From positions 1 through 56,116 of the forward strand of contig JACVJF010000005.1 in NCBI GenBank assembly GCA_015711855.1: a DNA stretch of 56,116 bases. Direction: 5' to 3'. The DNA is from Candidatus Solincola quzhuomuensis (GTDB lineage: Bacteria > Actinomycetota > Geothermincolia > Geothermincolales > RBG-13-55-18). The position numbers and the translations under genes are program-made. Below, in pieces: positions 41,272 through 54,071 of this stretch; position 1 is the stretch's first letter; the number at the start of each line of letters is the position of its first letter. The notes beneath the pieces were generated by a model that did not search any database, had not been told where the DNA came from, and saw only the letters and a list, made by a program, of their open reading frames with translations.

Positions 41272-43128
41272 ATGGAATACCCGTGGTTCAAGGAGTATGA
41301 CTTGTGCCGAATACCCAGGACCCTGGAACCCTACCCTTCGATTCCCACCCACGGCCTTCTGGACCAGGCGGCCGGGAAGTTTCCCCGTATGGGATGCGTT
41401 CAGCTGGGCCTGGAGATGACTTATCCCGAGATCAAGGAACACGCCGAGCGTCTGGCGAACGCCCTCGCTTCTTTGGGGGTTAAGAAAGGCGACCGCGTGG
41501 TGACCCTTCTTCCGTCCTCCATTCAGTTCGTGGTGGCCGATTCCGGGATATCCAAGGCCGGTGCGGTTCATGTGCCCTGCAGCTTCTTGGAAGCCAAGGA
41601 CGCGCTGGCTCACAAGTTCACGGAGAGTTCTCCCAAGGCCCTGATCTGCCTGGAAGATCACCTGGCCACGGCCGAGTACCTGAAGGAATACATGGTTACC
41701 CCCCATATAATCCTCACCAAGCTGAGCGACTATTCGGGGTGGTCCAGTCGACACACCGAACTCCCCGACGTGCTGTGGATGACGGACCTCATTGAACAGG
41801 CCAGGCCCGAGCCTCCCGGAGTGGCCATCGATCCCGCCCGGGATCTGGAGACCCTTCTTTTCACCGGAGGGACCACGGGAATGCCCAAAGGGTGCATGCT
41901 CACCCACCGCAACTTGGTGGCCAACGTTCTGCAGAACATCGCCGTCTTTGGTCCCGTAACCAAGGTGTTGAAGGGAAACATAAACGTGATCATGGGGCTT
42001 CCCTTCTTCCATAGTTACGGCCACTGCATCATGCACACCATGATCGGAGGTATGGCCGCCACCATGCTCATCGTCCCCGATCCTCGGGACGTGAAAGCCA
42101 TGCTGGAGATCATGCGCAAGTACAACCCCGTCCTGCAGTTCGGGGTCCCCACCCAGTTCATGAAGATGCTGGAGGAGGACCTCCATGCCGCAAGGGTCAT
42201 AGGCATCTCCGGATCCGCCGCCTTGCCTCCCACGGTACAGGAGAAGTTCGAGGAGTCCAGCGCCGGCGGGTACGTCTCGGAGGGTTACGGACTCTCCGAG
42301 CTGTCCCCGGTGACCCATTTCAACGTCTCCACCAACATGAGGGTCATGGGCGGAAGGCGGGGGGTGAAGATCTTCAACGCACTTCTCTTCAACCCTTTGA
42401 GCATCGCCCTCACCCGTGCTCAGGCCAGATTGCTGGGACCGAAGCGTTTCGGCCGAATGTTCACGGGGATAATCGGCGCCCTAGCCAGGCGCTCCCGGAA
42501 GTCCGGAGAGGCTCGGCAGGTGGAGAGGCGGGCCACCATCGGGATACCCCTGCCGGATACCGAGGTGCGGGTGATAGACGTGGACACCGGGCGCACCCTT
42601 TCCTTCGAGGAACTTTATCGGGACGGAAAGGTGGGCGAGATGCTCCTCAAGGGGCCGCAGCGCATGCTGGGATACTGGCCGGAGGAAAGAAAGGGCCTGG
42701 ATGAGGAGGGTTTCGTCCACACCGGGGACGTGGTCAAAATGGACGAGAACGGATACTTCTCCATCGTGGACCGTACCAAGGACATGGTCATCGTCTCCGG
42801 GTACAAGGTTTATACCAGGGAGGTGGACGACATCCTCTACGATCACCCGGCCACGAAGTTCGCGGCCACCATAGGGGTACCTGACCCCGAGAGGCCGGGA
42901 AGCGAGAGGATCTGGGTCTTCGTCCAGCTAAAGGAGGAATACCAGGGGAAGGTCACCGAGGAGGATTACATGAACTACCTCCGGGAGAAGGTGGCCAAGT
43001 ACGCCGTTCCCCGGGAGGTGGTTTTCCTGGATGAGATGCCCCTCACCGAGGTCTTTAAGGTGAACAAGAAGGCCCTCCGGGAGATGCAGTTGAAGAAGCT
43101 GCAACTCGACCAGGCCGTGGAGGGCTGA
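41272..43128 (+). CDS. Long-chain-type acyl-CoA synthetase (AMP-forming)
   Basis: A 618-residue ANL-superfamily ligase that activates a carboxylic acid to the acyl-adenylate and then the CoA thioester. Motifs: the ATP loop LLFTGGTTGMPKGCMLTHRN, GYGLSELSPVTH, HTGDVVKMDENGYFSIVDRTKDMV and the hinge/C-terminal VSGYKVYTREVDD with a lysine near the end (FKVNKKALRE). Between GYGLSE and IGIPLPDTEV there is an insertion of about 60 residues (about 355-418), basic with hydrophobic stretches, that most FadD-type ligases lack. It converges with the reductase-like operon at 43462, so it may feed acyl-CoA into it (inference). Confidence 0.88.
   Translation: MEYPWFKEYDLCRIPRTLEPYPSIPTHGLLDQAAGKFPRMGCVQLGLEMTYPEIKEHAERLANALASLGVKKGDRVVTLLPSSIQFVVADSGISKAGAVHVPCSFLEAKDALAHKFTESSPKALICLEDHLATAEYLKEYMVTPHIILTKLSDYSGWSSRHTELPDVLWMTDLIEQARPEPPGVAIDPARDLETLLFTGGTTGMPKGCMLTHRNLVANVLQNIAVFGPVTKVLKGNINVIMGLPFFHSYGHCIMHTMIGGMAATMLIVPDPRDVKAMLEIMRKYNPVLQFGVPTQFMKMLEEDLHAARVIGISGSAALPPTVQEKFEESSAGGYVSEGYGLSELSPVTHFNVSTNMRVMGGRRGVKIFNALLFNPLSIALTRAQARLLGPKRFGRMFTGIIGALARRSRKSGEARQVERRATIGIPLPDTEVRVIDVDTGRTLSFEELYRDGKVGEMLLKGPQRMLGYWPEERKGLDEEGFVHTGDVVKMDENGYFSIVDRTKDMVIVSGYKVYTREVDDILYDHPATKFAATIGVPDPERPGSERIWVFVQLKEEYQGKVTEEDYMNYLREKVAKYAVPREVVFLDEMPLTEVFKVNKKALREMQLKKLQLDQAVEG
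42928..43128 (+). repeat. Duplicated 3' segment, copy 1 (inside the acyl-CoA synthetase gene)
   Basis: Bases 42928-43128, the last 66 sense codons plus stop, recur at 43137-43337 with an offset of 209. The two copies differ at only six positions, all silent. Confidence 0.95.
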
Positions 43129-43461: not shown

Positions 43462-44223
43462 TCAGGAAGAGAGAAAGCCGCTCTCGAAGAGGCATTCGCG
43501 AACCGCCTCCAAAGCCGGGCAGGAAGGGATTTCCAGGAAGTTTCCCGCGGCGACGTCGAACTCCCTGACCATGTCGTCCTCCGGCAAGACACCCAGGAAG
43601 GGAAGGGAGGTGTTTTCAGCCAACCTACGGGCCTCTATTGTGTCCCTAACCCGATTGACCACGAGGCCCAGCTTCCGATACTCCACGGCTTCCTCGGCTA
43701 CCTCCCGGATGGACTCCGCCACACGCAACCCCTTGACCGTCACGTCGCTCACCAATAGAAGGTGAGAGACGGAGCGCATCACCCGGCGGTTCACCTGCTC
43801 CACACCGGCCTCGGCATCGATGAGGGTAAGGTCGAAGTGGGAGGAGAGGGACTCGATGGCTTCCCGCAACAGGGTGTTGAGCTGGCAATAGCAACCCTCC
43901 TCCTCCGGGCGGCCCACGGAGAGGAAAGCCAGGTTGTCCCGCTCCACGAGGATCTCCATCATCTTATAATCCACGGAGGCTGCCAGGTCTAACTGGTCGG
44001 TGGCGTGCTCGCGCACCGCGGAGAGTATCTCCTTGCGCACGTCGTTGACCGTCTTGGGGGGAAAGATGCGCAGGGCCATGCCTAGTCCCACCGCCGGGTC
44101 GGCGTCCACCACCAGAACGCGCCGCCCCCCGTCCTCTCGGAGAATCCGCGTTAGGAGAGCGGCCAAGGTGGTCTTCCCCACCCCGCCCTTCCCGCAGACG
44201 GCGATCACCTTGCTCCGGGTCAT
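43462..44223 (-). CDS. CooC/AcsF-type nickel-related ATPase (MinD/ParA family)
   Basis: A 253-residue deviant-Walker ATPase. KGGVGKT lies at residues 12-18, VVDADPAVG follows, and a C111-x-C113 pair sits in the segment GCYCQLN, the arrangement known for CooC, whose C-x-C at nearly the same position binds metal between two subunits. CooC/AcsF proteins use ATP to mature the nickel centres of CO dehydrogenase or acetyl-CoA synthase. It is the last gene of the minus-strand operon; its ATG overlaps the stop of the acetyl-CoA synthase-like gene by four bases. No CODH gene is in the window, so the client may be that neighbour. Confidence 0.83.
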   Translation of the reverse strand: MTRSKVIAVCGKGGVGKTTLAALLTRILREDGGRRVLVVDADPAVGLGMALRIFPPKTVNDVRKEILSAVREHATDQLDLAASVDYKMMEILVERDNLAFLSVGRPEEEGCYCQLNTLLREAIESLSSHFDLTLIDAEAGVEQVNRRVMRSVSHLLLVSDVTVKGLRVAESIREVAEEAVEYRKLGLVVNRVRDTIEARRLAENTSLPFLGVLPEDDMVREFDVAAGNFLEIPSCPALEAVRECLFESGFLSS

Positions 44224-44954
44224 CCGGGGTCGGCCTCCTTGCCGCCCCGTTCCGCCTGCAGGCGGTCGCGGATGCGCCGCAGCTCCACCACGCTGTCGCA
44301 GACCTCCACGTACTCGCAGGTGTCGCAGTCGAAGTTCATCTCCTCATACATCTTGATGAGCGCCTCCACGATCTCCTGCACCAGGTCGGCGGCCGGGGAT
44401 AGCTCCTCGATCTCCTCCCGGGAGGAGGTCACCAGGAGGACCTCGGCGGCTTCCACGTAATCCAGCTTCTTGACCGCTTGGATGAGGGCGCTTCCCAGGA
44501 TCTGGGCGTTAAAACCCCGCTGCATGGCCTCTCGGCTCACCCGGCACCAAACGCTCTGCCTGCCCGGGAAGACGCGAGTCATAAAGCCGCGCAGGCCCAG
44601 GTCGTAGGTGGCTTCGCGCAGGTCACGGTAGCAGTCGTATTCGTCGCTGAAGTGTCCCCCCACCATGATCACCTGGGCCAGAGGAGCTTTTCCGCCCGCC
44701 ATCTCCGGGAAATCCGGCCCCACCAGGGTGATCCGCCCGTCGACCACCGTCCCCGAGTCGTCCCAGAGAAGGAGGGAACGGGAGGCGGTATCCGGGCTTC
44801 CCAGCTCCAGGCCGGTGTCCTCGCTGAGGATTACCTGAGGGGAGGAGGTTCGAGGGAGAACGGGGATGAAGGAGAATTCCCTCGCTTCTCCCGAGGAGCG
44901 CTTCCGCTCCAGGTAGTTCCGGATGTCCTTTAGGGGTTCCTCGAAGAGTCCCAA
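44220..44954 (-). CDS. Truncated acetyl-CoA synthase beta-subunit (AcsB/CdhC)-like protein
   Basis: A 244-residue protein that I match to the middle of AcsB/CdhC. Corresponding segments are LSEDTGLELG (about 43-52), DGRITLVGPDFPEMAGG (72-88), PLAQVIMVGG (91-100), WCRVSREAMQRGF (136-148) and VEAAEVLLVTSS (167-178). In acetyl-CoA synthase this part forms the CoA-binding middle domain. It ends with a small cysteine set, C210-x2-C213-x5-C219, where real AcsB begins its A-cluster with C-x2-C-x8-C; the rest of the A-cluster domain and the N-terminal CODH-contact domain are missing. TTG start one base after the activase stop. A full A-cluster is unlikely; a CoA-binding or metal-delivery partner is possible. 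Confidence 0.72.
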   Translation of the reverse strand: MGLFEEPLKDIRNYLERKRSSGEAREFSFIPVLPRTSSPQVILSEDTGLELGSPDTASRSLLLWDDSGTVVDGRITLVGPDFPEMAGGKAPLAQVIMVGGHFSDEYDCYRDLREATYDLGLRGFMTRVFPGRQSVWCRVSREAMQRGFNAQILGSALIQAVKKLDYVEAAEVLLVTSSREEIEELSPAADLVQEIVEALIKMYEEMNFDCDTCEYVEVCDSVVELRRIRDRLQAERGGKEADPG

Positions 44955-44955
44955 C

Positions 44956-45726
44956 TCAGCTCGTTTCCACTAAAAGGGCGGCACCCACCGCCGCGGCCAG
45001 CATGGGATCCAGGGGAAAGGGTTGGAATTCTCCCTCCATGCGTTCCCGTATCAGGTCCACCACGGTGCGCACCCGGGCCACGCCGCCGGTAAAGGTGTAG
45101 CGGTTGCCCCCCCCGAAGCGGCGGGCCTGGGAGGTCACTATGCGGGCCACGGCGTCGCATAGACCGGCCACGATGTCCTGGGGAGGCTCTCCGTTGTTGA
45201 CGTGGGTTATAACCTCGCTCTCCACGAACACCCCGCACTGGGAACTGATTGGGACGCGCTTAGCGGCCCGAGAGGCCTCCTCGTCTATGCGCTCCACGGG
45301 GATGTCCAGGGCTCCCGCCATGACCTCCAAGAAGCGGCCGGATCCGGAAGCGCATTTGTCGTTGCGCATGAAGTCGATAACCTCCCCCTCGGGGTTGAGG
45401 AGGATGGAGGTGATGCTCTGGCCTCCGATGTCCACCACCAGGTCCACCTCGGGGAGGAAGCAGCGGGCCGCCCACCCGATGCAGGCCACCTCGTCCTCCA
45501 GAAGATCGGCATCTTTGAGGAACTCTGCGCCGCTTCCCGTGGCCACCATGCCGTCCAGGTTATGAGGGCTCACGCCCGCCTCGCGGCAAACCTCCTCGAT
45601 GAGGCCGTCTACCTCCCCGGCTATGTTGCCGGTGGTTTCCATTATCTTCCAAGCAAGAATGGTCTCTCCATCCATGATCACCGCTTTGGAGAAGAGGCTA
45701 CCGATGTCGCAACCCAGAGCTTTCAT
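44956..45726 (-). CDS. HgdC/BcrD-type ATP-dependent activase, second copy
   Basis: A 256-residue ASKHA-fold ATPase. It has the phosphate-binding DIGSLFSKAV at the N-terminus, VVDIGGQSITS, and C125 (NDKCASGSGRFLE) and C164 (SSQCGVF), matching the two cysteines per subunit that in HgdC bridge a [4Fe-4S] cluster across the dimer. Such activases hydrolyse ATP to drive one low-potential electron into the HgdAB or BcrBC partner. The sequence after IGGQ (SITS for DAK) differs from its neighbour, so the pair is not redundant. Its ATG overlaps the stop of the first activase by four bases. Confidence 0.88.
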   Translation of the reverse strand: MKALGCDIGSLFSKAVIMDGETILAWKIMETTGNIAGEVDGLIEEVCREAGVSPHNLDGMVATGSGAEFLKDADLLEDEVACIGWAARCFLPEVDLVVDIGGQSITSILLNPEGEVIDFMRNDKCASGSGRFLEVMAGALDIPVERIDEEASRAAKRVPISSQCGVFVESEVITHVNNGEPPQDIVAGLCDAVARIVTSQARRFGGGNRYTFTGGVARVRTVVDLIRERMEGEFQPFPLDPMLAAAVGAALLVETS

Positions 45727-46514
45727 AGCGACCCTCCCAATCGACGGGCGAGGATGGCGGCGCCCAGCGCCCCGACGATCTGCGGATCCACCGGACAGGG
45801 TACCATCCTCACTCCCAGGATGCGTTCCAACTCCGCCTTCACCGCGGCGTTTTTGGCCACCCCTCCGGACATGGTCACCTCCGGCTCCACCCCCACTCGC
45901 CGGGCCAGGGCGGCCACCCGCTCGGCCATGGCCCGGTTAACGCTGGCGGCGATGTCCGCCTTGTCCACCCCCCGCTGCATGTAATGAAGGACCTCCGTCT
46001 CGCAGAAGATGCTGCAGCGGCTGGAGAGGTTCACGGGATGGTGGGATTTGAGGGAGAGGGTGCCCAGCTCGTCCAGGGTGATGCCCAGAGTGCGGCACAT
46101 GACCTCCAGGAAGCGGCCCGTCCCCGCCGCGCACTTGTCGTTCATGACGAAGTCCTTGAGTTCCCCGGTGGGCTCCATGCGGATGACTTTGGCGTCCTGG
46201 CCCCCGATGTCGATGATGGTGCGGACGTTGGGTAGAAGCCAGAGCGCCCCCGTGCCATGGCAGGATATCTCGCTGACGTTGGACTGGGCCAAGCCTCTGG
46301 CCTGTACCTGCTCCCTGCCGTAACCCGTGCTCACGGTAAAGGTAAGGTCTTCTCGCCGCAACCCCAGTTCGTCGAGGAGCTCTCCCATGACCGTCTCCGC
46401 CGAGTCCACCGGGTTGGGCTTGACCCGGATGCTGCGGAAGCCGGCGATCTTGCCGTCCTCCATGATCACCGCCTGGGCGGTCAAGGAACCCACGTCGATG
46501 CCCCCGAAGCGCAT
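45723..46514 (-). CDS. HgdC/BcrA-type ATP-dependent activase, first copy
   Basis: A 263-residue ASKHA activase with GIDVGSLTAQAV, STGYGRE, IIDIGGQDAKV, and cluster-ligand cysteines C128 (NDKCAAGTGRFLE) and C167 (SSRCSIFCETEV), close to C127 and C166 of Acidaminococcus HgdC. TMSGGVAKN supplies the adenosine motif near residue 215. With the next gene it forms the two-activase arrangement of BcrA/BcrD; real BcrA is much longer. It is preceded by GAGAGGTGAG and by a 197-base leader from the strong minus-strand promoter at 46711-46739. A second cysteine (C171) sits near C167. Confidence 0.9.
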   Translation of the reverse strand: MRFGGIDVGSLTAQAVIMEDGKIAGFRSIRVKPNPVDSAETVMGELLDELGLRREDLTFTVSTGYGREQVQARGLAQSNVSEISCHGTGALWLLPNVRTIIDIGGQDAKVIRMEPTGELKDFVMNDKCAAGTGRFLEVMCRTLGITLDELGTLSLKSHHPVNLSSRCSIFCETEVLHYMQRGVDKADIAASVNRAMAERVAALARRVGVEPEVTMSGGVAKNAAVKAELERILGVRMVPCPVDPQIVGALGAAILARRLGGSL

Positions 46515-46710
46515 CTCTCACCTCTCTTTGCCGACTCGCCGGTCCCTACCGGGAACCGTCTTTGGGACTTTATACTCAAATTTTAGCCTATCGGTCGGCC
46601 GATTTTCGGGAAGTCCGGCGAGCATCGGCGGAAAGAGGACGCGGAAGGGTGCACTCTTTTCCCGGACCCCCCTCCCCGCGCATGCATCCGGACTTTTAAA
46701 GGATATTTGT

Positions 46711-46739
46711 ATATTATGACCGTGGTCATTTTTTGTCAA
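46711..46739 (-). promoter_or_regulatory. Strong promoter of the activase/ACS-like/CooC genes
   Basis: Read on the minus strand: TTGACA (46739-46734), a 17-base spacer, then TAATAT (46716-46711). The -35 is perfect and the -10 matches five of six after allowing one register. It lets the four downstream genes be transcribed apart from the two reductase-subunit genes. Confidence 0.72.
46716..46729. promoter_or_regulatory. Palindromic operator inside the activase promoter
   Basis: ATGACC (46716-46721) and GGTCAT (46724-46729) are perfect inverted repeats separated by two bases, lying between the -10 and -35. A dimeric repressor bound here would block RNA polymerase. TetR- or GntR-type acyl-CoA regulators use similar short palindromes, but no regulator gene adjoins. 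Confidence 0.55.
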
Positions 46740-46823
46740 TGACGCCCGCTTCGTGTCCTCCGCGAACCCCACGGGTTTCCACGAGTGAGAAAACGGCACC
46801 CGGATTCGCCGATTTAAGGCTAC

Positions 46824-48224
46824 TCATGCGCTACTCCCGATTCTCCGCCGACGTCGCCGGACCACGTTCTCCACGAAGGACTCTATCTCTTCCTGGAGGA
46901 CGCTGGTAGGGGTCATGCGCCGTATCCAGGAATCGCCCTGCAGACAGAGGACGGGGACCCCGGTGCGCTTCAGGATCTCCTGGCGCACCTGATTGATGAT
47001 GCTCCAGGTCTGCTTGCAGGCGTGGTGCCCGGAATATATGGCGCAGTCGGCGCGCAGGTCGCGGATGAAGCCGCACATGTCCTCTATCCAGGCCAGGGAC
47101 ATGGAGGAAGCTCCCATCTGCCTGGTCATGGGGTATTCGAAGCAGGATTCCGCCAGCCCCTCGAGCATGCTCTCCCGGCTGGAGGTGTCCACGAAGCGTG
47201 GCTGGCACAGGGATAGGATGTCGTTAAGGTAGGTTATGCCCCGCTCCTCCATCCAGTTGAAGAAGCCTAAAAAGTCGAAGTAATACCCGATGTATAGCCA
47301 CATGCACCGGGCCACCTCCTCGGGGGCCGGGTACTCCCCGGTCTCCAAGCGCCTTTTGGAGTGGTCCACCAGGGATTGCATCATCCGCGTCCCCTCCGGC
47401 CGCCCCCAGCGGGTGAAGCGAGCCCCATAGGTAAAGAGGGAGAAGATGTTGGGTACCGGACAGGGAGAGAACTTCCGCAGGTCATAGAGTTCGTAATAGA
47501 GTTCCGCGGCTCGGTTGGCCTCCTCGAGGACCTCCCTCATGCGCTCCTCTTTAAGCTCCTCGCCGATCATCTCCTCCAGGCGGCGGATGAACCCCAGAAA
47601 ATAGCGGCGATGGAGCTCTTTACCTCGTGGACCGCTGTCGGTGGGCTTTTCCAGAATCACCTGAGGGATGCCCATGTGCAAGGAGACGAACTCGTGGATC
47701 TTGGAGTTGGCGTCGCAAGCCCCGGGGGCCGACTGGACGATGATGTCCGGCTCGAAGTCCCTTCCGGTGAGGACGGAGCCCAGCTCGATGGTGGACGAGG
47801 AGCAGAGGAAGTCGGGTATGCCCAGGCCCATGGCGTAGTCCCAATACCGCTCCCCCTGTCCCTCCAGCATGGATACACCCAGGGTGGTGAGCACCTCGCT
47901 GGTGAGGGGGACGGCGTTGCGGAAGAGGTAGATTATCTCCGGAGGAAAGTTGAAAGGTACCAGGACCACTTTACGACCCTCCTCGCGGGCCCGGCGGGCC
48001 TCGCGTATCCAGCCCCCGATCATGGCTATGAAGTCCAGGCTCACCTCCCGGAAGCGGGAGGAAAGCAAGGCACGCATGGACCGAGAGGTGTCCCGAGGCA
48101 GCAAGTGCAGAAGCCCCTCCACCTCCTGGTCGCTCATCCCGCGCGGGAGCTGCAAGGCTACCTCGATGAGTTCCTCTGCCCTACGGAAAAGGCCGTCCCC
48201 GGTATCCCTGCCGCGCTTGTTCAT
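46824..48224 (-). CDS. BcrB/HgdA-like 2-hydroxyacyl-CoA dehydratase/benzoyl-CoA reductase subunit
   Basis: A 466-residue member of the HgdAB/BcrBC superfamily. ATG 48224 is preceded by GAGGTGG; the frame opens five codons earlier. Three well-placed cysteines fit [4Fe-4S] ligation: C141 (PDFLCSSST), C170 (APGACDANS) and C403 (GHHACKQTW), the last followed by the family pattern GVPVLCLQGD. Its size suits BcrB, which with BcrC binds the substrate ring or the acyl-CoA. It begins 11 bases after the BcrC-like stop, so the pair is co-translated. Substrate cannot be read from sequence; a 2-hydroxyacyl-CoA dehydratase or an ATP-dependent acyl-CoA reductase are both possible. Confidence 0.85.
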   Translation of the reverse strand: MNKRGRDTGDGLFRRAEELIEVALQLPRGMSDQEVEGLLHLLPRDTSRSMRALLSSRFREVSLDFIAMIGGWIREARRAREEGRKVVLVPFNFPPEIIYLFRNAVPLTSEVLTTLGVSMLEGQGERYWDYAMGLGIPDFLCSSSTIELGSVLTGRDFEPDIIVQSAPGACDANSKIHEFVSLHMGIPQVILEKPTDSGPRGKELHRRYFLGFIRRLEEMIGEELKEERMREVLEEANRAAELYYELYDLRKFSPCPVPNIFSLFTYGARFTRWGRPEGTRMMQSLVDHSKRRLETGEYPAPEEVARCMWLYIGYYFDFLGFFNWMEERGITYLNDILSLCQPRFVDTSSRESMLEGLAESCFEYPMTRQMGASSMSLAWIEDMCGFIRDLRADCAIYSGHHACKQTWSIINQVRQEILKRTGVPVLCLQGDSWIRRMTPTSVLQEEIESFVENVVRRRRRRIGSSA

Positions 48225-48235
48225 CTTTTTCCACC

Positions 48236-49396
48236 TCAAAGATTACCGAGTCCTGCGGAGGAGGCGTGTTTCCGAAAACCCCCTCGGCCGCCGATGCGTT
48301 CCAGGAAAGCCTGTATTCGAGTGCGTATCCGCCCCAGGTCGGCGGTGGAACCGTATTCCTTCTCCAGTACCAGCACGGGGATGCCGCGTTCTTCGAGGTC
48401 CAGGCGCAGGCGCACGTTCTCCACCCCGTGCAGGTCGCAGAACTTGTTGTACACCAGCACCGCACCGTCCACCCGGGCCCTCTCCGCCGCTTGGAGGATG
48501 AATTGCAGTCGGGAGGGATAGTCGTCGAACATGCGGGGGCAGAGCAGGTGCCTCAAATAGGCCTCGGCGAGGGCGTGGACGGGCTCCCCTTCCACCTCCG
48601 GGAGCTTCCAGAAGGCGCGGGTCCCATAGCACAAGGCGTCGGTGACCACCAGCCCTCCCAGGTCCTCGACTTCTCTAACCAGATCGGGTTCGTCGGTGGC
48701 GCTTCCGGCCAGGAGGAGACGCGCCCGGTATCCTCCGATCTCCCTTCCCTCGGCTTCCTGCAAGAGGTTTTCGAGCAGATCGTCGAACGCCGCGGGGGGA
48801 AGGGAGGATTCGAGGAGGAGCACGGCTAGGGCTTCTTGCCCGGTGAGGGCGGGATTCTCCCTCTCCCGCAGGGAGAAAAGCCGGCGCATGCGCTCTCGAC
48901 GGGAATTGGCGGACTTTACGGCCTCGGAGAGGGCCGCATCACCGATCTCCACCTGGAAATGATTGGAAAGAGATTCCCGGAGCAGTTCCAATTCCTCGGC
49001 GAAGAACTCCAGGGATTCCTCGGTAACCAAATGGGGGACCTTTAAATAATGGAAGAACCCCGGGTTCACCGCCTCTTGCCAGTTCTCGAACATCCCCCGC
49101 AAGTGGTCGCAGCCGTTGGTCTCCACCAGGCCGTCGAGAAAATCATAGGCCCCCTCCAGGGCCAGCTGGAGGCAGGCCCGGCAGAAGCCGCAATTGAAGC
49201 GGGAGAGATGGGCGTCGGCACGGTCGCGTTCCGGCTTACCCAAGGCGCGCACTCGGTAGGGGAGTATCCCGGCGGCGTCGAACAACTCTCGCGGGGTGGC
49301 CACGCAGGTGAAACCGACCACGTGTCCGCCGCTTTCCTTCCACTCCCGAAGCCGGGACGGTATCAACTCCCGGGCCGTGCTCAGGACTTCGTCCAT
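48236..49396 (-). CDS. BcrC/HgdB-like 2-hydroxyacyl-CoA dehydratase/benzoyl-CoA reductase subunit
   Basis: A 386-residue protein (ATG 49396 with AGGAG upstream; the frame runs back to 49468 without family character). It shows the family layout: C31 in GFTCVATPRELFDAAGI, a cysteine cluster C69-x2-C72-x2-C75, C96 in NGCDHLRGMFENW, and a late cysteine in YNKFCDLHGVENVR, followed by GIPVLVLEKEYGS. These are expected ligands for a [4Fe-4S] cluster. It is the first gene of the operon and of BcrC size. Extra cysteines C72 and C75 exceed the three needed, so additional metal binding is possible. Confidence 0.87.
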   Translation of the reverse strand: MDEVLSTARELIPSRLREWKESGGHVVGFTCVATPRELFDAAGILPYRVRALGKPERDRADAHLSRFNCGFCRACLQLALEGAYDFLDGLVETNGCDHLRGMFENWQEAVNPGFFHYLKVPHLVTEESLEFFAEELELLRESLSNHFQVEIGDAALSEAVKSANSRRERMRRLFSLRERENPALTGQEALAVLLLESSLPPAAFDDLLENLLQEAEGREIGGYRARLLLAGSATDEPDLVREVEDLGGLVVTDALCYGTRAFWKLPEVEGEPVHALAEAYLRHLLCPRMFDDYPSRLQFILQAAERARVDGAVLVYNKFCDLHGVENVRLRLDLEERGIPVLVLEKEYGSTADLGRIRTRIQAFLERIGGRGGFRKHASSAGLGNL

Positions 49397-49679: not shown

Positions 49680-50618
49680 TTACTGCCCGAATATACCGCC
49701 CAGGATGCCTCCCGCCGGTCCGCTGTCCCCACTCTTCGGTCGCTGCAGGCTGGTTTTGGGCGCCTCCTCGCTGGGCTGAACGACCACATAACCGTTGCCC
49801 TGGAAAGCCAGCTGGAAAAGCTCCCCGTGGGTGGAGCCGAAGATCCCCTTGAGACTGGAGAGGTTGGCGTCCACGTGCACTGTGGGGTTGAGGGTCGGGG
49901 ACCAGGCGATGGTGGCGTTGGGGTCGGTGAAGACGGGCTGATCAGGGGTAACCTTGAGGGTCATGGGCTCTCCCTTGGAGATGAGGGCCAGATAGCCCGT
50001 ACCCTTAAGCTCCACCGTCCACAATCCCCCGGCCATCATACCCGCCGCACCCTTGATCATCTTTATGTCCCAGGAGATGCTGGGGGTGAAGGCCAGGAGG
50101 TTCAAGGCCTCTACGGTGACGGCCTCGTTGTTCAGATAGAGCAGAACGACGTCGTTGGCGGCGTCGGCTAGGAATAGGTCCCCGGTACCCTGGGCCAGCA
50201 TGAGGGTGAACGATTCGCCGGAAACGGCCTTCTTTATCCATTTGTCCACTCCGCCGCTTCCCAGGCGTGTGAAGTTAATCTGACCTTGGTAAGCGATCAT
50301 GGAGCCCGCTTTGGCCAGGACCTGTCCACCGCATGCCTGCATATTCACCCGGAGGAGTTTCTTGCTCTGTAGGCTGAAGGCGTTGGGGCTTTCCACCTCC
50401 ATGGATTTTTGCATCAAGGCCGCCAGGGTGGTGGGAGCGAGCTCGTCGCCACCGGAACGCTGCGCAGCCCGATCAACCTGGGTCGAATTCGTGGCGTGGG
50501 GACCCTCGACGGGAGCATGTTCGGCACCCGCTGCCGGCGATGGGGCCAGCTTTTGGCCGCAGAACCGGCAGAAGGAAGCGGAGTCGTCGTTTTCCTGTCG
50601 GCATCCGGGACACAGCAT
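49680..50618 (-). CDS. AIM24-family protein with N-terminal zinc ribbon
   Basis: A 312-residue protein. The first 25 residues form a zinc ribbon (CPGCRQEN...CRFCGQK). After a low-complexity linker a beta-rich AIM24/TIGR00266-type domain runs from about 75 to 290 (GGQVLAKAGSMIAYQG, GSGGVDKWIKKAVSGE, GTGYLALISKGEP). A glycine-rich C-terminus ends GGILGGIFGQ. The bacterial family has no established function; the yeast member is a mitochondrial biogenesis factor. ATG with AAAGGAGG seven bases upstream. Apparently monocistronic. Confidence 0.82.
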   Translation of the reverse strand: MLCPGCRQENDDSASFCRFCGQKLAPSPAAGAEHAPVEGPHATNSTQVDRAAQRSGGDELAPTTLAALMQKSMEVESPNAFSLQSKKLLRVNMQACGGQVLAKAGSMIAYQGQINFTRLGSGGVDKWIKKAVSGESFTLMLAQGTGDLFLADAANDVVLLYLNNEAVTVEALNLLAFTPSISWDIKMIKGAAGMMAGGLWTVELKGTGYLALISKGEPMTLKVTPDQPVFTDPNATIAWSPTLNPTVHVDANLSSLKGIFGSTHGELFQLAFQGNGYVVVQPSEEAPKTSLQRPKSGDSGPAGGILGGIFGQ

Positions 50619-52268: not shown

Positions 52269-53180
52269 ATGTCGGAGATAAGGTTTGACGGACGCGTCGC
52301 AGTAGTGACCGGGGCCGGCGGCGGCCTGGGTAGGGAATACGCCCTGCTCCTTGCCAGCCGCGGATGTAAGGTCGTGGTGAACGACCTGGGCGGCGCCATA
52401 GACGGCACGGGTTCGGGGACCACCGCAGCCGAAAAGGTGGTCCAGGAGATCAAGGACGCCGGCGGTGAGGCGGTACCCAACTTCGACAGCGTGGCCGATT
52501 GGGAGGGCGCCCAGAACATCATCAAGACCGCCATCGACAACTACGGAAAGATCGACATCCTCATCAACAACGCCGGCATACTGCGCGACAAGAGCTTCCT
52601 CAAGATGGAGCTGGAGGACTACGACAAGGTGATCGCCGTTCACCTGAACGGGACCTTTTACTGCTCCAAGGCGGCCTGGCCCTACATGCGCGAGAACAAT
52701 TACGGGCGGATCATCTCAGCCGCCTCCGCCGCGGGTGTTTACGGTAACTTCGGGCAGGCCAACTACGGGGCGGCCAAGATGGGTATCATAGGGCTCATGC
52801 ACGTGCTCAAGCAGGAGGGCGCCAAGTACAACATCCTGTGCAACGTAATCGTGCCCATAGCCGGAACCCGTATGACGGCTACCGTTCTTCCCCCCAACCT
52901 GGTGGAGATCCTCAAGCCTGAGTACGTGGCTCCCATGGTGGTCTGGGCCTGCTCCGATCGGTGCAACTTCTCGGGCTACACCTTCGTCGCCGGTGCCGGG
53001 TACTTCAGCCGCACGGCCTTCATGGAGGGACCGGGCGTGTTCTTCGATCCCTCGCAGGGAATAACCCTGGAGATGATCGACGAGAACATCGAAAAAATCG
53101 TCTCCCTGGAGGGTGCCCGGACGTTCGAGAACGCCACCGAGCAGACCGGCTACGCCCTGTCCAAGCTCAACCTGGGTTGA
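52269..53180 (+). CDS. Short-chain dehydrogenase, MFE-2-type 3-hydroxyacyl-CoA dehydrogenase
   Basis: A 303-residue SDR that resembles the dehydrogenase part of peroxisomal multifunctional enzyme type 2. Motifs: VAVVTGAGGGLGREYALLLA (NAD loop), VVNDLGGAIDG (NAD selectivity), NNAGILRD, catalytic S-x12-YGAAK (SAASAAGVYGNFGQANYGAAK spans it) and the tail typical of the MFE-2 subgroup. It would oxidise 3-hydroxyacyl-CoA to 3-ketoacyl-CoA. ATG with AAGGAAAGGAG upstream. The MaoC gene follows after 39 bases, so hydratase and dehydrogenase are encoded separately but together. Confidence 0.87.
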   Translation: MSEIRFDGRVAVVTGAGGGLGREYALLLASRGCKVVVNDLGGAIDGTGSGTTAAEKVVQEIKDAGGEAVPNFDSVADWEGAQNIIKTAIDNYGKIDILINNAGILRDKSFLKMELEDYDKVIAVHLNGTFYCSKAAWPYMRENNYGRIISAASAAGVYGNFGQANYGAAKMGIIGLMHVLKQEGAKYNILCNVIVPIAGTRMTATVLPPNLVEILKPEYVAPMVVWACSDRCNFSGYTFVAGAGYFSRTAFMEGPGVFFDPSQGITLEMIDENIEKIVSLEGARTFENATEQTGYALSKLNLG

Positions 53181-53219: not shown

Positions 53220-54071
53220 ATGCCTATCGATCTTTCCGTGGTGGGGAAAGAGCTCCCCGCTCTGGACTACGAGTATACGATCAGGGACGTGATACTTTAT
53301 GCCCTGGGTGTGGGAGCCGGGTACGAGGACGAAGACCTGAAGTTCGTCTACGAGAACGGACTTCAGGTGCTACCGACGTTCGGCGTCATCCCTCCTTTCC
53401 CGGCCCTCATGGGTCTGGTGAACGTGGAGGGGGTGAACATCAACCTGGTGATGCTGGTCCACGGGGAACAGTACCTGGAAGTGCGCAAACACCCCATTCC
53501 CACGCAGGGGAAACTCACATCCAAGCCCAGGATCGCCGCCGTGTGGGACAAGACCAAGGGTGCGGTCATCGACCTCGACGTGGAGACGGTGGACGAATCG
53601 GGCGAAGTGGTCTTCTTCAACACCTTCTCCAGCTTCATAAGAGGCGAGGGCGGCTTCGGTGGAGAGCGCGGGCCTGAGCCGGGGAACGAGCCTCCGGATC
53701 GCGATCCGGACAAGGTGGTGGAGATGAAGACCCTCCCCACGCAAGCCATGATCTACCGCCTTTCCGGGGATTACAACCCCCTGCACATCGACCCCAACTT
53801 CGCCAAGATGGCCGGTTTCGACCGCCCCATCCTGCATGGGCTCTGCACCTTCGGTCATGCGGGGCGGGCGGTGCTCAAGGAATATTGCGGCAACGACCCG
53901 GCAAAATTCAAGGCCATCAAGGTGCGCTTCAGCCGACCCGTTTGGCCGGGGGACACCATCGTGACCCAGATGTGGAAGGAGTCGGAGGAGAAGATAATCT
54001 TCAGGTGCACCACCAAGGAGCGCCCCGACGAATATTGCATCACCAACGCCGCGGTGTGGCTGAACGCATAG
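53220..54071 (+). CDS. MaoC-like enoyl-CoA hydratase 2
   Basis: A 283-residue double-hotdog protein. The N-terminal hotdog starts RDVILYALGVGAGYED, and the C-terminal one has the hydratase-2 motif YRLSGDYNPLHIDPNFAKMAGF followed by ILHGLCTFG, with the catalytic aspartate and histidine. It would hydrate trans-2-enoyl-CoA to the (3R)-hydroxyacyl-CoA used by the adjoining SDR. Together they equal eukaryotic MFE-2 without the sterol-carrier domain. ATG 53220 follows AAGGGG. A strong terminator ends the operon. Confidence 0.9.
   Translation: MPIDLSVVGKELPALDYEYTIRDVILYALGVGAGYEDEDLKFVYENGLQVLPTFGVIPPFPALMGLVNVEGVNINLVMLVHGEQYLEVRKHPIPTQGKLTSKPRIAAVWDKTKGAVIDLDVETVDESGEVVFFNTFSSFIRGEGGFGGERGPEPGNEPPDRDPDKVVEMKTLPTQAMIYRLSGDYNPLHIDPNFAKMAGFDRPILHGLCTFGHAGRAVLKEYCGNDPAKFKAIKVRFSRPVWPGDTIVTQMWKESEEKIIFRCTTKERPDEYCITNAAVWLNA

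Follow-up and report, generated by a model that had tools for sequence, protein, structure and literature searches.

Organization of the locus

The window considered here is the whole 56,116-nucleotide stretch of contig JACVJF010000005.1 from Candidatus Solincola quzhuomuensis. It harbours six open reading frames, designated A to F in order of transcription, which occupy positions 43,462 to 49,396 of the minus strand and were all confirmed in the window (Table 1). Genes C and D overlap by 4 bp (ATGA), as do E and F, and a single nucleotide separates D from E (TGA-G-TTG): the four-base or near-zero junctions that an earlier sequence-only reading had noticed among the last four genes are therefore in place. 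A further 4-bp overlap joins A to B, provided that B starts at TTG 48,239; the other option is ATG 48,224. The longest frame of gene A opens at GTG 49,468, with ATG 49,396 as the likely start. The sole real gap within the series measures 309 bp, is located between B and C and contains a strong promoter.

The six genes are flanked by a fatty-acyl-CoA ligase gene and an AIM24-domain gene. Across the host family the ligase, a short-chain dehydrogenase (SDR) and a MaoC/MFE-2-type hydratase are syntenic around the operon, which suggests a fatty- or related-acid context. Genes in the neighbourhood of loci of this kind include acyl-CoA dehydrogenases, enoyl hydratase and SDR.

Table 1. Genes and sequence features at the locus, with positions in the window.
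Feature	Position	Strand	Description
Acyl-CoA ligase gene	41272-43128		Fatty-acyl-CoA ligase; flanking gene
Gene F	43462..44223	(-)	CooC-type MinD/ParA ATPase; CbiA/MinD-type by Pfam
F C111-Y-C113	43885..43893	(-)	Equivalent of the CooC1 Cys112/Cys114 metal site (PMC6006190)
Gene E	44220..44954	(-)	ACS middle domain (PF03598) as a stand-alone protein; C-terminal CxxC-x5-C
E C210, C213, C219 (CxxC-x5-C)	44298..44327	(-)	First two align with the first two ACS A-cluster cysteines
Gene D	44956..45726	(-)	Second, divergent activase
Gene C	45723..46514	(-)	ATP-dependent activase, BcrAD/HgdC type
Promoter TTGACA-17-TAATAT	46711..46739	(-)	Sigma-70 type; between B and C, ahead of C-D-E-F
14-bp palindrome ATGACCACGGTCAT	46716-46729	(-)	Within the promoter spacer
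Gene B	46824..48239	(-)	Catalytic-type HGD-D subunit (Pfam, 165 bits)
Gene A	48236..49396	(-)	BzdN-like double-cubane subunit, HGD-D (Pfam, 283 bits)
AIM24-domain gene	49680-50618		Flanking gene
SDR gene	52269-53180		Syntenic across the host family
MaoC/MFE-2-type hydratase gene	53220-54071		Syntenic across the host family

The probable reductase core: A, B, C and D

The nearest structure to A in the PDB is BzdN (E-value 5.9e-53), followed by HadC (8e-32) and DCCP. The [8Fe-9S] double cubane of BzdN is held by Cys36, Cys73, Cys100, Cys263, Cys293 and Cys327 (PMC11971306). All six cysteines are present in A of the window and in each of the 53 A proteins encoded at E-bearing loci, whereas HadC lacks a cysteine at the positions of BzdN Cys36 and Cys263 in the alignment. 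B of the window retains the three cluster cysteines and the glutamate of the HadB/BzdO-type subunits that carry the catalytic [4Fe-4S]-OH2 cluster; over 75 aligned B rows, the residues C84, C117, C346 and E55 of HadB are matched in 75, 75, 71 and 72 cases, respectively. Three residues past the matching Cys, B displays an Asn, to be set beside the active-site His131 of BzdO in a comparison made without a BzdO-level alignment. Judged by these residues, A bears the ligand set of an [8Fe-9S] cluster and B that of a catalytic [4Fe-4S] cluster.

The BcrAD_BadFG family is assigned twice by Pfam (207 and 146 bits). Both C and D possess HgdC-type cluster cysteines, in the motifs NDKCAAGTG and CSIFCETEV in the case of C and NDKCASGSG and CGVFVESEV in the case of D. 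In a tree of activases the two proteins of each locus split into separate clades according to their position, and C and D are two distinct activases, which presumably form a heterodimer. The BcrABCD-like 2+2 core that had been read from the sequence is thus borne out by two HGD-D subunits, two BcrAD_BadFG proteins and the cluster ligand sets.

The acetyl-CoA-synthase-derived pair: E and F

E is a protein of 244 residues, of which residues 42–178 are covered by the CdhC family PF03598 (Pfam, 49 bits). Residues 42–183 align to acetyl-CoA synthase (ACS) positions 333–475 approximately, that is, to the middle domain only, and in profile comparison with hhalign the match continues into the A-cluster loop as far as its first CxxC. 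The structure predicted by AlphaFold2 (pLDDT 89) retrieves 22 significant matches from the PDB, all of them ACS/CdhC. The N- and C-terminal domains, the CGC motif and a complete A-cluster (four cluster cysteines plus CGC) are absent from E, which ends after CxxC-x5-C, and the score against the ACS/CdhC equivalog amounts to 57 bits with a cut-off of 372. As E is devoid of the CGC and of the rest of the A-cluster, the ACS reaction is excluded and an active acetyl-CoA synthase is ruled out. A proposed equivalence of E W136 with Trp418 of M. thermoacetica ACS was dropped, since the numbering gave no support. Contact between CoA and the middle domain has been observed in ACS (PMC12289521).

The C-terminal CxxC-x5-C of E is invariant in an alignment of 23 sequences. 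Among 61 E proteins, in all of which the motifs are intact, 43 exhibit the three-cysteine form, and the other 18 possess one more cysteine upstream of it. CooC is encoded at the locus for 42/43 three-cysteine proteins as opposed to 7/18 four-cysteine ones (Fisher P = 8e-7, a value that ignores phylogeny and contig ends), some four-cysteine loci having no F nearby. This pattern, which is only correlative, fits the loading by F of an incompletely ligated site in E; the three cysteines could also simply hold a [4Fe-4S] cluster or zinc. As a separate observation, the E homologue of genome G353 lies within a 571-residue open frame (L129:7777-9492), possibly a fusion or merely an open upstream frame.

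F contains the deviant Walker A motif CGKGGVGKT and a CYC metal site, and its best PDB match is CooC (3kje, E-value 2.8e-15), with the CYC aligned. In CooC1 the CxC holds one nickel per dimer (PMC6006190). The C-x-C is found in 49/49 F proteins at E loci. These proteins group in one clade (support 99/98) that excludes the CooC/AcsF proteins encoded at true CODH/ACS loci, which were drawn mostly from the same or related genomes. The matches to PF03598 and 3kje agree with the AcsB/CdhC-like module and the C-x-C CooC ATPase described earlier from the letters of the sequence.

Promoter, predicted regulon and proposed shared use of C-D-E-F

The promoter in the B/C gap encloses a palindrome in its spacer. 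The pattern TTGACANAAAATGACCNNGGTCATA occurs at two sites per genome in each of the four species of the host genus. One site immediately precedes C-D-E-F, and the other separates a TetR-family gene from an acyl-CoA dehydrogenase gene; the reversed-pattern controls returned zero matches. In genome G001 the second palindrome site heads a stretch of two acyl-CoA dehydrogenase genes, a further A'-B' pair and a ferredoxin gene, and in other genera the site between the TetR and dehydrogenase genes likewise has an A-B pair within a few kb. The palindromic promoter was also noticed at L156:704-728 and in L183-L200; in other genera it marks acyl-CoA dehydrogenase genes. The palindrome-marked genes are predicted to make up an acyl-CoA-responsive regulon, with TTGACAAAAAATGACCNNGGTCATAATAT as a candidate operator of the TetR regulator, for instance that of G001:C10. 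G001 encodes three A-B pairs of the clade, yet one C and one E. The separate promoter and the single C and E for several A-B pairs indicate that C-D-E-F is controlled separately, and the prediction is that it drives at least two reductases in an acyl-CoA pathway.

Conservation and distribution

The order A-B(-B')-C-D-E-F is found in most loci of the class and is kept across genera and phyla, which places the grouping of the six genes far beyond chance. In five genomes only D-E-F or E-F is present at the locus retrieved and an A-B-C-D-B' cluster is located elsewhere in the genome; in G004 the E-F pair is a few kb from the remaining genes, with the A-B-C-D-B' cluster on the same contig.

E is present in 24 of 59 sampled relatives. 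When its occurrence is set against that of the close B clade, 24 genomes have both, 34 neither, one B only and none E only (Fisher P = 1e-15, or 1e-5 within the class, both ignoring phylogeny). G025, the single genome with the B clade and without E, has a completeness of 82%, and its lack of E may have technical reasons. A search of 395 genomes from the phylum of L073 (Desulfobacteraceae) found 30 with a match at an E-value of 1e-20 or lower, one of which is the query genome itself; about 29/395 sampled Desulfobacterota-type genomes thus contain E. Two Bacillota-type genomes also have it, one recovered by a genome scan and the other among 397 other genomes of the phylum sample, in which two weaker matches correspond to full-length ACS-sized frames. 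An HGD-D or activase gene is situated within 10 kb of E at 51 of 58 tallied loci (19/20 and 32/38), as against 0/15 true ACS loci, a comparison that ignores phylogeny; CooC is present at 12 of these 15 ACS loci.

The association of an ATP-driven enzyme set with ACS-derived E and F is therefore real and is conserved among anaerobes from three or more bacterial phyla, and we regard the anatomy and conservation of the six-gene system as close to certain. The sequence-only reading had proposed that the six families be sought together in this order, and had named two outcomes that would have undone it. Neither holds: the genes are conserved jointly in other genomes, and the families to which E and F belong stand apart from CODH operons.

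Several further observations concern individual loci. The most distant E homologues (L142, L143 and L145) have no HGD-D gene nearby, and those of L143 and L145 adjoin acyl-CoA dehydrogenase and DctP-type genes, which may reflect a different use of the fold. In Desulfobacterota (L072, L073, L113-L123) a second A-B pair and a third activase are often beside E-F, accompanied in some by a TRAP-type binding protein. Paralogous and Desulfobacterota loci contain frames of about 440–550 residues (L153:3687-5324, L162:5574-7082, L073:4377-5870, L120:3425-4756), most of which immediately precede A. Those scanned yielded no Pfam family above cut-off, and that of L153 none in NCBIfam either; the unaligned sequences look similar at the N-terminus.

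Comparison with known systems

The system resembles class I benzoyl-CoA reductase (BzdNOPQ/BcrABCD) in that two HGD-D subunits and two distinct activases are encoded together, and in the cluster ligands of A and B. It differs in the extra genes E and F, in the presence of several A-B pairs per C-D set and in the ring-cleavage hydrolase Oah (TIGR03200), which exceeds its cut-off in none of the 25 E-bearing genomes searched. No NCBIfam equivalog cut-off for the enzyme is reached (BzdN 168 of 454, BzdQ 215 of 380, BcrA 145 of 578, BcrD 131 of 313). With DCCP the system has in common the double-cubane ligand set of A and an ATP-driven activase; however, DCCP is a single self-sufficient reductase gene, whereas here the system is heteromeric, with a separate catalytic-type subunit B as well as E and F, and the DCCP model NF040772 scores 189 bits with A and 44 with B for a cut-off of 350. 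HadBC/HadI and HgdABC belong to the same superfamily, and B has the HadB cysteines and glutamate, but the cysteines of A are not HadC-like, there are two activases, and E and F are added.

E shares with ACS/CdhC the middle-domain fold, the VGPD and W-x-R motifs and the CxxC that opens the A-cluster loop, while lacking the remainder of the enzyme and residing outside CODH operons. F resembles CooC/AcsF in its deviant Walker A and CxC metal site, with CooC1 as the closest solved structure; in contrast to those proteins it forms its own clade and is tied to E rather than to CODH/ACS.

A proposed mechanism and its alternatives

We take the A-D core to pump electrons, at the expense of ATP, onto a double cubane and a [4Fe-4S] cluster with an open site, as is established for the class. 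Ferredoxin would reduce C/D, and ATP hydrolysis would drive electrons one at a time into the double cubane held by A and from there to the open-site cluster of B, which would reduce a CoA-thioester in an acyl-CoA pathway that includes two acyl-CoA dehydrogenases. F may load a metal into the three-cysteine site of E, nickel being the leading candidate by homology with CooC. E would bind CoA or an acyl-CoA and, together with the common C/D module, serve as a subunit for electron transfer or for gating of the substrate, and one C-D-E-F set would serve several A-B pairs of the same cell. The proposal as a whole, an A-D reductase powered by C/D with E/F as a metal-loaded, CoA-contacting partner, is one that the gene content and conserved residues lead us to favour by a small measure, and analogy with ACS and CooC inclines us just as slightly towards E as a metal-binding, CoA-contacting protein loaded by F. 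Nickel as the metal in E is a tentative suggestion drawn from the same analogy. The fullest version, in which E receives nickel or another heterometal from F, binds CoA-thioesters and is a subunit active in the turnover of an ATP-driven double-cubane reductase, is marginally more doubtful still.

E and F might instead be maturation factors only, F as an ATP-driven metal carrier and E as a scaffold or docking protein, that assemble or repair the clusters of activase and reductase. The single E-F pair for several A-B pairs would suit such a role, as would the persistence of E-F with D where A, B and C are elsewhere, and CooC proteins are maturases (PMC6006190). Against this, the BzdNO clusters, including the complete double cubane, were assembled in Escherichia coli without E or F (PMC11971306), so that these proteins are no general need of this enzyme class; moreover, E equals the enzyme parts in conservation and retains the CoA-contact domain of ACS, for which a scaffold has no obvious need. 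We hold maturation alone to be rather unlikely, and a radical 2-hydroxyacyl-CoA dehydratase of the HadBCI type, equipped with accessory proteins and using ATP only to start turnover, to be less likely again. HGD-D family membership, the residues that B shares with HadB and the neighbouring acyl-CoA dehydrogenase, enoyl hydratase and SDR genes are compatible with a dehydratase, but A has all six double-cubane ligands, two of them without a counterpart in HadC, and the HadC (120 of 700) and HadB (43 of 750) models remain far under their cut-offs. The earlier alternative of a low-potential reductase or a dehydratase is accordingly narrowed: the cysteine pattern of A supports its reductase half and disfavours the other, and a reductase is the probable identity on these sequence grounds.

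A further alternative is a true reductase of benzoyl-CoA, or of a substituted benzoyl-CoA, in a pathway of aromatic degradation. The 2+2 architecture and BzdN as closest structure would accord with such an enzyme, but the failure to reach any benzoyl-CoA reductase equivalog cut-off and the Oah result make it very improbable, and canonical ring cleavage is unlikely. The substrate is probably other than benzoyl-CoA. The neighbouring acyl-CoA dehydrogenases are all below equivalog cut-offs, the best being cyclohexane-1-carbonyl-CoA dehydrogenase, whose model gives a score of about 217 bits at most for a cut-off of 650, and on this basis we name no substrate. Finally, E and F could be remnants of a CODH/ACS operon that lie beside an unrelated reductase by chance, and the host genome does carry a genuine CODH/ACS locus that has a separate CooC. 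The gene order conserved across phyla, the near-perfect phyletic match of E and the B clade, the distinct F clade and the intact motifs of E refute this notion, to which we attach a negligible probability.

Significance

ATP-driven double-cubane reductases perform some of the hardest electron transfers known outside nitrogenase. The open-access literature, with subscription journals outside the scope of the search, yielded no description of such a reductase in combination with ACS-derived E and F. If E were a nickel subunit, the benzoyl-CoA-reductase superfamily would gain its first nickel site, and part of acetyl-CoA synthase would prove to have been re-used outside C1 metabolism. The predicted regulon offers a handle, as the acid that induces it should be the substrate family. 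In genome annotation, matches to 'CO dehydrogenase/acetyl-CoA synthase beta subunit' and CooC beside HGD-D genes are no evidence for carbon fixation. A conserved module derived from ACS and its nickel insertase, shared by three or more phyla, suggests an unrecognised step in this class of reductases, which may be a new metal site, a substrate gate or a maturation route.
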